From positions 237,528-301,527 of the forward strand of contig KV419434.1 in NCBI GenBank assembly GCA_001630475.1: a stretch of DNA of 64,000 bases, in the 5' to 3' direction. This document shows, one piece after another, positions 1,210 through 37,519 of this stretch; position 1 is the stretch's first letter; every line of letters begins with the position of its first letter. The position numbers and the translations under genes are program-made. The notes below the pieces were generated by a model, which saw nothing but the letters and a program-made list of their open reading frames with translations, did not search any database and was not told the DNA's origin. The stretch is from Sistotremastrum niveocremeum HHB9708 (lineage: Eukaryota > Basidiomycota > Agaricomycetes > Sistotremastrales > Sistotremastraceae).

Positions 1210-3639
1210 ATGCACTCCCATAATACTTCTCTCTCGAGTTCGGAACAAGATACAGCTAGCAAGTCACTCAACATATCTGATATCGACATTACTAGCCGAA
1301 TAAAATATCCAGAAGATCGACGATTCCCCGTTAAATTTGGCGGCTATGCAGACATATATATGGCGGATCTAGACGGTCTGAAAGTAGCAGTGAAGGTGAT
1401 GAGAGATGTGGGCGTGAATGAGGAGAAAAGGCTTGCGCTAAGTAAAGTGAGTATTGCCATACATTCACCCGAACGATCGGGTTCCCATCTCTTGTTTAGA
1501 AAATACAGGACGAGATATCGATATGGTCTTCGATGCAACATCCGAATATATTGCCGTTCAAAGGATTCACGTTCTTTCCTCCCGAAGCCTCAGATTTCTC
1601 CGTTTTCGCTCTGGTGTCGCCATGGATGGAGCGAGGGACTCTGTTGGAATATGTTAAGCCTTGCAGTGATGGTCATCGATGTATCATGGTATGTTGATAT
1701 ATTCTCTTTCGAAATGGCGGCACCCTGATGCACCGACATTACAGCTGTTGGAAGTATGCAAGGGACTGGAGTACCTGCACGAGCGAAATATCGTCCATGG
1801 AGACTTGAAAGGGGTGAATATCAATTGCTATTGTCATCTGCGGCACGGGAAACCTGACTATGCTTAGTGCAATATTCTCGTTACGGGTCAAGGTCGTCCT
1901 GTTCTCGCAGATTTCGGACTTTCGAGACTGTCGGAAGTCGATGCAGTCTTCTCTACCAAATCAGCTGCGTCTAGCGCAACCGGATTCCAAGGTACCGCGA
2001 GATACATGGCTCGGGAGCTATTCAATCCCGTACCTCCGAAACCTACAAAGGCTACGGATATTTGGGCATTAGGATGTGTCATCATGGTGAGACTACATTC
2101 ACACTGAATCACCGTGATCGAGCTGAATGCCTCTCAGGAAGTCATCTCCCGGAAATGGCCTTACGTTGGATGTACTCATGACCCTCAGGTCATACATAGT
2201 ATTATTCAGAAGACTATGCCATACGACAAGTCGAATATGCAGGAGATATCATCACGTTTTCCCGGAATCGGAGAACTCTGTACAGATACCTGGAATATGA
2301 CTCCTGGCTTTCGTCCCGAAATCTCCCGCGTCCTACTTCGAATTTCAGAATCTACTAGCCAAATTCTCCCTCGCAGTCCTGAGTCCAAGATCACACTTGA
2401 CTTTCCATCCGGGCTTTGGACTCCCGGATCCGAGATTCGAGGAACAGTCGAGATGAACATTATGAACGTTATTGAACTGAAATCCGTTCAGATCATCCTA
2501 GAATATTACGTTATTATCAAAACGTATGTGACAGTTGCTTCATGGTTTGCTTAGCTGACCCAATGCCAGACAGTACGATTCGGTCTCGAAGAAAACATCG
2601 CACAGTGGCTCGCTACGATACAGTCACAAAGGAATCGTCAGTTCATTCAGAGAAAACTACACTCTGGGAGTCAGCTGGGCTGGATGTCGTAACTTTTCAG
2701 GATAATCCGACGAAGCTGACAGTTCCTTTCACTTTTCGGATCCCTGAAGACAAAATACTGCCGCCTTCTTTCTCGCACGAGAGTGCTGGGGTCGCCACGC
2801 AGATATGCCACGGAATCCGGGTAATGAAAGTCGTCGATCACGGCACGCCAGAGATCCTGGCGGATCGTCAATTCCATTTTCTTCCGTTTGAGAAAGCTCC
2901 GCTGCCACCGCTGGAGGAAGGAAGCATGCGGTCGATCCCAGCCGCAGGGGATGAGCACAGGGTGCAGAAGAATTTTGATACTCAAGATGGCGGGAGAGTC
3001 GAAGTCGAGGTAAGTTTCATCCCTTTTTGCGCTACGATGACTAACGGACTCTCCGCAGATTTCAGTGCCGAGACCAACTATCTCGCTGTTTGAGTCCACG
3101 CAGATCATGCTTCGTGTTCGTTGCTTCTCATGCAATCTTCCACGAGCTTGGTCTCGGGATCCAAGCACATGCGTATTTCCTCGACCTCCGGAGTCTGCTG
3201 AGGAGATCGAGATGGTCCTATGGGGTTTTGGGAACGTCAAGACCGATGATGGAGACCATGAGTTTACATTTTCCGATGACGCGATTTCCGGATTTGGGCC
3301 ATCCGGTTCCCGAGAATTGGATGTCAGTGTCACAGTACGAGAACCCGAATGGGTGAAACAAGTCGATGGTGGCTTTGATGGAAGATGGCGTCAGGAAGGC
3401 GTCTATACCTCAACGCTGAAGCTATCGGAGAAGATCGTTCCCAGCTTTGACTTCAAACACGAACAGCACTGCTCTATACAAGTCAAGGTAGGCATATGTT
3501 CCCGCACTAGGACGCGTCGATCTGGATTTTGATATTTCAAAAGTATCATATTTTAGTGACCCTTCCGCAGACGGAGAGTGAAGTTGTGATGGTCGTCCCT
3601 CTACGTATTTCCTCTGGTTTATCGAAAGATATACCTTAG
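1210..3639 (+). CDS. Protein kinase fused to arrestin-like domain
   Basis: Eight exons fit in phase: 1210-1446, 1500-1688, 1745-1813, 1868-2086, 2138-2523, 2574-3009, 3059-3487 and 3571-3639, giving about 677 residues. Residues about 40-308 form a tyrosine-kinase-like Ser/Thr kinase: glycine-loop GGYADIY, ATP lysine K62 in VAVKV, catalytic HGDLKGCN (D162, N167), DFG at 180-182 and TDIWALG. HGD replaces HRD, and the APE motif reads ARE. After a linker of roughly 13 residues the same exon enters an arrestin-like N-domain (from about 322: KITLDF...PGSEIRGTV), then LPPSF and a C-domain ending at 3639. Arrestin-related proteins act as cargo adaptors; I see no PPxY ubiquitin-ligase motif. The stand-alone kinase at 36237 has identical internal exon lengths and no arrestin part. 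The alternative, two genes merged by eye, would need a hidden stop or start that I do not find. Confidence 0.75.
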
Positions 3640-4536: not shown

Positions 4537-6470
4537 ATGAGTTCATACCTCTTCTCATTCGTTCCGAATCCATATGCTTTTCTATTTGCGACCACACTCC
4601 TCGCGGTATTGATCATTGTATTCCGAGCATGGCGTAGACTTGCACTCCCTCCTGGGCCGCGTTCGAGGCTTCCTTTTGGATTTGGGAGCTCGAACTCTGG
4701 GATTCCCCAGCGAAGTGCTTGGACAGAATACACTGAATGGAAGGAGCTATATGGTATATCGTCATTGGCCTCAGTTTCATCAAAAACACTCATCAAATTG
4801 CCTGCAGGACCGATAGTCTCCTATGGTTTTGGAAACACTCAGGTCATCGTCCTCAACACAGCTAAAACCGCCACGGATCTCTTCGAGAAACGATGGAGGA
4901 TATATTCCGATCGTCGGGGATCCCCAATCTTCGACAAGTTTAATGATCACATCTTCTTCCGGACGAATTATCACCATCCTCGGTTTGGCGCGTATAGGAG
5001 ATTATTTCGTGAAGAATTTGGCCGCGGAACTGTCGAAAAGCATCTTCCAGCGTTGGCTTTGGAGACCCGCCGTTATCTTCAAGATCTAGCTAGTAATCCA
5101 GAGGAGTTCAGAGCGCATATTCGGAGGTACGTTTCGCTGTCTGGTTCTGTGAACTATGCCCGACTGATCCCCCAGATTTACTTCTGCCGTGATCATGAAG
5201 ATTACATACGGATATGCAATCGTCGGCAATGATGATCCGTTTCTGAAAGATCTCAAGAATTGGCACAGGCACACCAGCGCGGACGTCGCAAAACCTATTC
5301 ATTGGACGATTCAGTTTTATCCATATTGTAAGTCGTTTTTCTTATTATATTAGGATCCTCATCAAGTGTAATCGGTCAGTGCGAATGCTGCCTCAATGGA
5401 TGCTCGGCAATGGTTTCTTTAGATATGCGGAGGAGCGCTGTGCGCGGAATCGAGAGCTTCTAACGGCCCCCATGGACTGGGTTAAAGACGAGATGGCGGC
5501 CAATAGAGCAATCCCATCTTTCGTCTCCCGGATGTTGGCTAGCACTGCATCACCTAGCCCCGAAGGCGAAGATATCATTAGGAACGTCGCCGGTGCGATG
5601 TTCATCGGAGGCTCAGATACGGTTTGTACCGCACCATTATTGAGTCAATCTGAGATGAGCTCATGCTCTATGCAGACAGCCTCGACCTTGTTAACTTTCA
5701 TTCTCATGATGGCGAAGCACCCCGATATCCAGGAGAAGGCTTTCACGGAGATCGAGACTGTGGTTGGTCAGGACCAATTACCGGCGATGAGCGATGTCGA
5801 CAAGCTTCCGTACCTCAATGCGGTGATCAAGGAGGTGTTGAGATTTCATCCGGCTGTTCCGCTAGGCATGTCATTACTTCGCATTCAAAGATTCTGAGAT
5901 GACAGAAATCTCGTTAGGGATCCCACATCGAGTCGCGGAAGATGATGAGTACCAGGGAATGCGCATCCCGGGTGGGTCGACGGTCATAGGCAATCTGTGG
6001 TATGAGCCTGACGAGACTTGTCTGGTTTGTGATGTAAAACTCAATTTTGTCCTGTGTCAAGGTCTATCTTGCACGATGCATCTATATATCCTGATCCCAT
6101 GCAGTTTGATCCGGAACGCCATCTAGTCCGTCAGTCGTCCAAGTTGACCACCCAACCTGACCCAAGGAACTACGTGTTCGGAGTTGGCCGCCGGATCTGC
6201 CCTGGTACGTTTGCCTTGTCGACGCATTCTTTGTTGCTGAAAATTTTCTTTTCTGCAGGTATGCATCTGGCCGAGAGAGCGATCTTCATGATCATATCTT
6301 CAACATTGGCCCTTTTCAAGATCTCGAAATGTAAAGATTCTCTAGGGAACGTCATTGAGCCGAAGGTCGAGTTCACGACCGGCATCGTCAGCATTGCCGA
6401 GGACTTCAAATGTGAGATTGTTCCGAGATCGCCGGAGCTATTTGGTTTTGTGGATGTTGCTGGATCTTGA
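4537..6470 (+). CDS. Cytochrome P450 (tandem copy 2)
   Basis: Complete membrane-anchored P450 of about 518 residues. Exons: 4537-4753, 4808-5126, 5176-5327, 5380-5621, 5676-5865, 5918-5999, 6062-6204 and 6259-6470, all in phase. An N-terminal hydrophobic anchor is followed by the proline hinge LPPGPRSR; the C-helix region, I-helix GGSDT, K-helix ExxR (about 363-366) and haem loop FGVGRRICPG (Cys about 447) are present. The ATG at 4537 is preferred because it has A at -3 and lies past a TATA-like element; an in-frame ATG at 4510 would add nine residues. Intron 5 uses a GC donor (5866) rather than GT; the same site is GT in the paralogues. No defect is seen. Likely a monooxygenase of secondary or xenobiotic metabolism; substrate unknown. 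Confidence 0.9.
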
Positions 6471-36236: not shown

Positions 36237-37519
36237 ATGTCTTTGGTCGTTCGTTCTTGTCGGGCGATTGATCAGCCTTTGGAATACATCAATTCCGGAA
36301 TTGATTGGGATACCCTCGATGTGACCAATAAGGTCAAATTTCCCGAGGAGTACTCCTGGCCTGTGGGCACAGGAGGAAACGCGGACATCTATCTAGCGGA
36401 ACTTGACGGAAAGGTTGTCGCCGTGAAGGTACCACGATACTATGGAATGGATGATGAAGACAAATCTGTATTGATAAAGGTCAGATCAACCTATTCTTTG
36501 ACAAAAAGTTCGCCGACAAACATCTTAGAAAATCAAGCGAGAAATTGGTATCTGGGCTCGATTGTGTCATTCTCGAGTCTTGCCTTTTATCGGCTATTGT
36601 TCCTTTTTATACGGACCCTCGGAAGTGTCGACATTTTCTTTGGTCTCGCCATGGATGAGAAATGGCACAATTTCAAACTATGTTCACCGCTATCAAAACG
36701 CAGACGTGTCCTCACTGGTCCGTGCTCATAACAAGTCGAAACATCTAGTTGACTCCCCATATCTAGCTCATTGAAGTTTGTGAAGGCCTGGAATACCTTC
36801 ATGCGCAAAACATTGTGCACGGCGACTTGAAACCGGTATAGACTCTCAGATCGTTCATATTGCATGTAGTGCTGAAATCTCGCGATTCGAAGTCAAATGT
36901 TTTCATCTCCGACGATGGGCATGCCGTATTGGCTGACTTCGGAAATTCGAGATCAGTAGAGGCTTTGATCCCTCTCTTGGATGGGTTAAACAACTTGGAC
37001 CTGTCTCATGCGTGCGGGACTTCTCGGTACATGGCACCCGAACTTTTCGAAGCTTCGGCTGCCAGCTCATCGACGGCAGCCGACATTTGGGCCTTGGGAT
37101 GTGTTCTTCTTGTGAGTGTGACTAAGAGGCTGATATCTATCATCCCTAAAGTTGACATTTGCGAGCTGATGCACCGCATACGACAGGAGATTGGAGTGCG
37201 AGCATTGCCATATGAAAGCTGCAAAGGAGACGCCCAAGTGATGTCCAGCATAATGAATCGAAAACTCCCATATCAGCAAACGTTGGAAGATTTCTTAGAG
37301 CAAAAAATTCGTCTTCTGTTTCGGTGGTCGTGGCAGTTTGGTCAGACATATTACCACAAACGCGGTATTGGCGCGATTTGTTCCAGGTGTTGGGAGACCT
37401 GTCCTCTTTCTCGTCCTCGGATCTCGACCATCGCACGTTGGCTGATTGATCTGAGAGATGAGAGCTTATCCTTTCACGAAATGAGCTGGAGAAACTGGGA
37501 AGACGAGTTGCGTCGGTGA
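36237..37519 (+). CDS. Protein kinase, stand-alone paralogue
   Basis: Five exons fit in phase: 36237-36479, 36529-36717, 36767-36835, 36893-37111 and 37187-37519, about 350 residues. Kinase signatures: GGNADIY, ATP lysine K64 in VAVKV, FSLVSPWMRNGT hinge, HGDLKPSN (D164, N169), DFG 182-184, YMAPELF and TAADIWALG, then CWE...RP in the last helices. As in the kinase-arrestin gene the catalytic loop is HGD, common in mushroom tyrosine-kinase-like families. Exons 2, 3 and 4 (189, 69 and 219 nt) have exactly the lengths of the corresponding exons at 1.5-2.1 kb. The protein ends about 30 residues after the kinase domain with no arrestin part. Likely an active Ser/Thr kinase of unknown pathway. Confidence 0.82.

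Follow-up and report, generated by a model that had tools for sequence, protein, structure and literature searches.

A predicted chimeric gene joins a protein kinase to an alpha-arrestin-like domain in the fungus Sistotremastrum niveocremeum

Visual and beta-arrestins, together with GRKs, are the setting in which an arrestin binds targets phosphorylated by a separate kinase. Kinase action here is linked with arrestin action in receptor control, GRKs being AGC kinases which possess an RGS homology domain and are not known to contain an arrestin. It is to these arrestins and kinases that the logic of the original prediction for the locus described here belongs, i.e., that an arrestin recognizes its target after a separate kinase has acted upon it. 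Alpha-arrestins, in the account given by PMC8050425, recruit the ubiquitin ligase Rsp5, with the PPxY motif of yeast ARTs binding the WW domains of that ligase, and with phosphorylation inactivating the ARTs. Fungal alpha-arrestins are known, in that same account, chiefly as adaptors bringing Rsp5 to cargo.

On the kinase side, both FslK and the Laccaria bicolor TKL set are described as kinases that are enlarged in Agaricomycetes (PMC3937382, PMC2838846). A further domain is given for only 16 of 241 FslK members (PMC3937382), and a survey of fungal kinases lists accessory domains of 65 kinds, with "arrestin" nowhere in its main text (PMC2838846). Domains associated with arrestins are, in turn, described as extremely rare outside of protists, with no kinase named in the section devoted to them (PMC2515105).

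The window, that is, the whole 64,000-nucleotide stretch of DNA that was analysed, corresponds to C41:237528-301527, C41 being one of the 111 contigs that make up the 34.7 Mb genome, with one assembly read. The short introns and the gene families are what one would expect of a fungus. At positions 1210-3639 of the window, on the plus strand, eight exons and seven GT-AG introns yield one in-phase frame of 677 residues with a single stop, as had originally been predicted. Going by its reading frame and relatives, this is a predicted chimera of members of two families enlarged in this genome: the final exon of a kinase gene continues, without a change of frame, as the opening exon of an alpha-arrestin-like gene. 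Exon 1 (1210..1446) encodes the N-terminus, the glycine loop and the VAVK lysine, and the intron at its end (residue 79, phase 0) is common to the kinase relatives. Exon 2 (1500..1688) covers the helix C region and an SPWM motif, exon 3 (1745..1813) the catalytic-loop HGDLKG, and exon 4 (1868..2086) CNILV, DFG and the activation segment, with ARE found where APE would be expected. Exon 5 (2138..2523) is where the fusion point lies, the end of the kinase, a short linker and the start of the arrestin forming one open frame. The remainder of the arrestin N-domain, followed by a stretch conserved in the family, is found in exon 6 (2574..3009), and a family-conserved second half in exon 7 (3059..3487). 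Exon 8 (3544..3639, or from 3571 as initially read) carries the stop at 3637-3639 and no PPxY.

Coding stretches of cytochrome P450 are found on both sides of the gene, at 1-863 and at about 4540-6100. Two pieces of the upstream one match Pfam p450; the downstream one is a reading by eye, the piece tested being without a Pfam match. A scan for promoters and terminators of bacterial type, a kind of scan not designed for fungi, remained near chance level.

At the start of exon 8 the 677-residue model needs a correction: relatives favour a start at 3544 over 3571. Intron 7 would then span 3488-3543, a length of 56 nt, and the protein would number 686 residues. In arrestin relatives a strand-turn-strand stretch precedes a conserved SSG, and a similar stretch in the fusion, YHILVTLPQTESEVVMVVPLRISSG, is readable if intron 7 ends at 3543 but not if it ends at 3570. 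Upon spliced alignment of the tails of four relatives, two (L018 and L021) pick the acceptor giving 3544 and two (L024 and L019) pick other sites (3557 and 3584), with none of the four picking 3571. Pairwise scores likewise are higher for 3544 than for 3571 with three of the four, the order being reversed with L019. The acceptor before 3544, AAAAG, is not a strong one.

That kinase and arrestin-like domain share a frame joined within the exon at 2138-2523, as first proposed, is borne out by Pfam matches on both sides of the join and by the lack of any stop between them. The linker separating the Pkinase and Arrestin_N matches is 18 residues in length (residues 304-321). In-frame ATGs in exon 5 are found at 2216, 2237, 2297, 2453 and 2462, and none is found within 2300-2452. 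Relative to genes of the two families, exon 5 is a last kinase exon merged with a first arrestin exon, the kinase's stop and the arrestin's start codon both being absent. In kinase relatives a stop follows 5-25 residues past the modelled kinase part in 6 of 13 (L039, L040, L042, L043, L049 and L053), tails of 38-191 residues precede the stop in another 6, and L041 ran past its locus; L040, L050 and L051 have models that stop short, at kinase residue 266-267. Of the 15 modelled arrestin relatives, 13 possess an in-frame Met ahead of the aligned part, often nearby, e.g., MVNHG in L027 and MFHRNSPPP in L018, with that of L022 lying behind a doubtful first exon. These counts of 15 leave aside L009, L011 and L014 (scores of 84, 48 and 85).

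Could the join then be an artefact? It might be an assembly error, or there may be two transcripts, one ending and one starting within exon 5. The analysis covered a single assembly, and in relatives the two halves belong to separate genes, both of which would be in keeping with such a view. The join, however, is in frame, within one exon and exactly at the ends of both domains, with no stop, no in-frame ATG across 2300-2452, and, of nine GT sites at 2200-2470, not one that fits the donor pattern GTRNGT; on these same observations separate kinase and arrestin genes were rejected, introns having been searched for at lengths of up to 149 nt. Codon usage, positive for the coding frame in each of the 20 exon 5 windows, backs that frame weakly, as at the join itself (window 2303-2392) another frame scores higher (1.6 versus 0.9). 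An artefact or a pair of transcripts is, on balance, quite improbable, and one gene encoding one protein is very probably what is present.

As to the kinase, the claim of a complete domain is upheld: exons 1-5 match Pkinase over residues 44-303 (E 1e-33), and PK_Tyr_Ser-Thr is matched as well (E 4.2e-28). The motifs VAVK, HGDLKGCN, DFG and DIWALGC are present, and the TK-type AARN is absent. The best PDB chains found with the kinase half using phmmer are mixed, i.e., EGFR, a MAP kinase kinase-like protein, CTR1, PDK1, MAP3K5 and IRAK4, and the label TKL/FslK-like therefore is inferred from motifs and the literature, not from a tree. The closest kinase relative is 52% identical, and no sister is strongly supported in the kinase tree. 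All four of the kinase introns (residues 79, 142, 165 and 238, each in phase 0) are present in 11 of the 13 modelled kinase relatives, though three of those 11 models also show extras: an additional first exon, doubtful, in L047 and L049, and two further introns in L041. The exceptions are L042, with its first intron at residue 80, and L054, a partial model which was excluded from kinase trees and residue counts.

The ARE found in place of APE, at residues 213-215, was pointed out previously and is confirmed, with the other catalytic motifs checked being intact. Among the kinases read it is unique to the fusion: at the same position 44 of 45 other family kinases read APE and one, L062, reads SPE. 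These 45 comprise 13 models, the second kinase of the window, and a further 20 plus 11, from a family which is larger than this sample, L086, which belongs to a different kinase family, and L087, which is too short, being left out. The Glu of the APE motif forms a salt bridge. As that Glu is kept in ARE, kinase activity would be expected. Residues that are invariant in the family are kept at 60 of 64 positions (0.94, versus 0.89-0.97 for 13 other rows), those lost being C103, S116, P214 (i.e., the change to ARE) and L238.

The family is represented a second time in the window, by a kinase at 36315-37432 whose best spliced model has the same five-exon layout. There the DFG motif reads DFGNSR, APE is normal, and no arrestin match is listed nearby. 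Another relative, L039 (C25:145721-149101), has HGDLN and GFG replacing HGDLK and DFG, and perhaps is a pseudokinase.

With the arrestin half, the evidence differs along its length. Residues 322-440 match Pfam Arrestin_N (PF00339; E 4.4e-10, 40.2 bits against a cut-off of 24.9), as do 10 of 11 rows of the arrestin family at E up to 1. On its own this half has no match in the PDB. An 11-row family profile that includes the fusion does match, over the N-part, the ARRestin Domain protein chain 7usy_J (E 1.5e-7), and its matches to beta-arrestins are weak (E of 0.65 or more). Of the two introns compared with those of relatives, that at residue 367 (phase 2) is found in 11 of 15 modelled arrestin relatives and that at residue 512 (phase 0) in 14 of 15. 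The comparison was limited to these first two arrestin introns, last-exon borders being wrong for L018 and several other arrestin models in the alignments.

The earlier expectation of an arrestin profile match to residues 320-677 thus is borne out for 322-440 but not beyond, where no match is found outside of the family. Arrestin_C was seen solely below its cut-off, positioned over the N-domain, and no Pfam match was found at residues 513-677. A profile of ten C-halves from the family, some of the tails having wrong last-exon borders, matched no arrestin in the PDB, and the single-sequence fold of exon 7 gave a pLDDT of 31. Exon 7 is 26-39% identical to nine relatives, with a GRW motif that is invariant, and it is by such family kinship that it is taken to be a putative second arrestin lobe, i.e., the arrestin C-domain.

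Among the 15 arrestin relatives, 12 end in a tail with PPxY, which in 10 of them takes the form PPxYW. The query with which tails were read was itself consensus-like and contained PPSYWEV, and is biased toward such tails, but 5 of the 12 had first been read without it, as had the PPPY of L018. In the five PPxYW relatives spliced out in that first reading, the last intron splits the motif. Most of these relatives probably recruit a ubiquitin ligase through the motif. The fusion, ending in SSGLSKDIP, has no PPxY in either the 677- or the 686-residue version, and none is hidden past the stop in any of the three forward frames between 3481 and 4300. As L026, L030 and L034 also are without the motif, its loss is not special to the fusion. 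Because the C-terminal PPxY is absent, the usual route to ubiquitin-driven endocytosis would be missing. The description of this half as a trafficking adaptor holds, then, in that the family is alpha-arrestin-like, but not in that the tail motif possessed by most relatives is lacking.

One might suppose that the main substrate of the kinase is the arrestin domain attached to it, that is, that the kinase serves as a built-in off switch. Separate kinases switch alpha-arrestins off by phosphorylation, such inactivation being described for yeast ARTs (PMC8050425), and the two Pfam matches lie only 18 residues apart, either of which would suit control in cis. Without a PPxY tail, however, little known adaptor output is left to be switched, and such self-control is an unlikely principal role.

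The arrestin half groups with L018 (support 100/99), its closest arrestin relative, which the same contig carries at a distance of about 80 kb. The best identity of this half is 33%, which suggests that the split between the fusion and L018 is old. Of 58 residues conserved in the family, the fusion keeps 39, the lowest of the 11 rows, and its sister L018 keeps 42; that alignment and count leave out L022, L023, L026, L027 and L028. As retention is low in both, the pair may have diverged or constraint on the pair may have loosened, and some decay fits as well.

A search for a second kinase-arrestin fusion, by spliced alignment on the same strand of 18 arrestin and 13 kinase loci, found none within the locus flanks. 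The kinase query scored 38-66 on the arrestin loci and the arrestin query 37-62 on the kinase loci, against nulls of 36-48 (six shuffles of L018) and 32-54 (the 18 arrestin loci reversed, for the kinase query only). Six scores exceed these nulls: L029 (66), L042 (62), L024 (59), L018 (58), L020 (56) and L041 (56). The three high scorers that were inspected, L029, L018 and L024, were rejected as fusions, consisting of patchworks that overlap arrestin exons. Among the matches listed, no other kinase adjoins an arrestin on one strand, and the viral contigs searched held no relative.

The alpha-arrestin-like family is a large one, found on a few contigs (C41:58-88 kb and 149-170 kb, C42, C38 and C17). 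At C42:218-255 kb, kinases of the fusion's own kinase family (218-234 kb) have members of the arrestin family (240-255 kb) for neighbours, each in a gene of its own; among the matches listed, this is the closest such neighbourhood apart from that on the fusion's own contig.

That the genome yielded no more than this one fusion, over the loci and flanks searched, could mean that a deletion or rearrangement merely joined two genes, with a product which is of no consequence or is decaying. The unique ARE, the missing PPxY and the lowest retention by the arrestin half can all be read in this manner. All eight exons nevertheless are open, with no stop, the kinase half retains nearly all of its invariant residues, and the modelled relatives include no near-identical copy of either half (52% at best for the kinase, 33% for the arrestin). 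An inconsequential by-product accordingly is viewed as improbable, if less so than the self-phosphorylation discussed above.

The reading that we prefer is of a chimeric kinase which is targeted by its arrestin domain and from which the PPxY output has been lost, to which a probability of roughly 0.55 is given. Speaking against it are the low retention by the arrestin half, a second lobe unmatched outside of its family, the unique ARE, and the weak codon usage at the join. Under this reading the product would be an active kinase. The arrestin domain might then bring that kinase to membrane cargo (a transporter or a receptor) or to the membrane, a mechanism of targeting which is a tentative proposal, somewhat less probable than its converse. 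There the kinase would phosphorylate the cargo or its neighbours, thereby taking over as output from recruitment of a ubiquitin ligase. Alternatively, the fusion might keep those arrestins of its family that do bear PPxY from gaining access. The fullest version, that of an arrestin-guided kinase which marks or protects membrane cargo in place of ubiquitination, and which arose through fusion of two enlarged families, is doubtful as a whole. If it were true, targeting by arrestins could evidently be redirected towards phosphorylation, and this natural chimera would open a way to the cargo of a large family of fungal arrestins.

No kinase-arrestin fusion is reported in the titles and abstract openings of the open-licence literature searched, with most subscription journals, UniProt and InterPro lying outside of that search, and such silence is a weak sign of novelty. 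The fusion is rated as a novel pairing of families that are each already known, seen in one genome and with a function that is putative. Relative to GRKs, no RGS homology domain is matched in Pfam at E up to 10, and the arrestin, unlike with GRKs, is on the same chain. The fusion resembles ARTs in its Arrestin_N match, in the match of its family's profile to 7usy_J, and in belonging with relatives of which 12 of 15 end in PPxY, but differs in having an N-terminal kinase, no PPxY, and no start codon of the arrestin's own. To FslK (PMC3937382) and the Laccaria bicolor TKL set (PMC2838846), as these are described there, it is similar in stemming from a large family within one genome and in possessing HGDLKGCN instead of the TK-type AARN loop, and it differs in its added arrestin domain, its membership in either group being putative. 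Amoebozoa arrestins with C2 or FYVE domains, in the description given by PMC2515105, likewise are arrestins fused to another domain, but there the partners are lipid-binding domains, whereas here the partner is a kinase.
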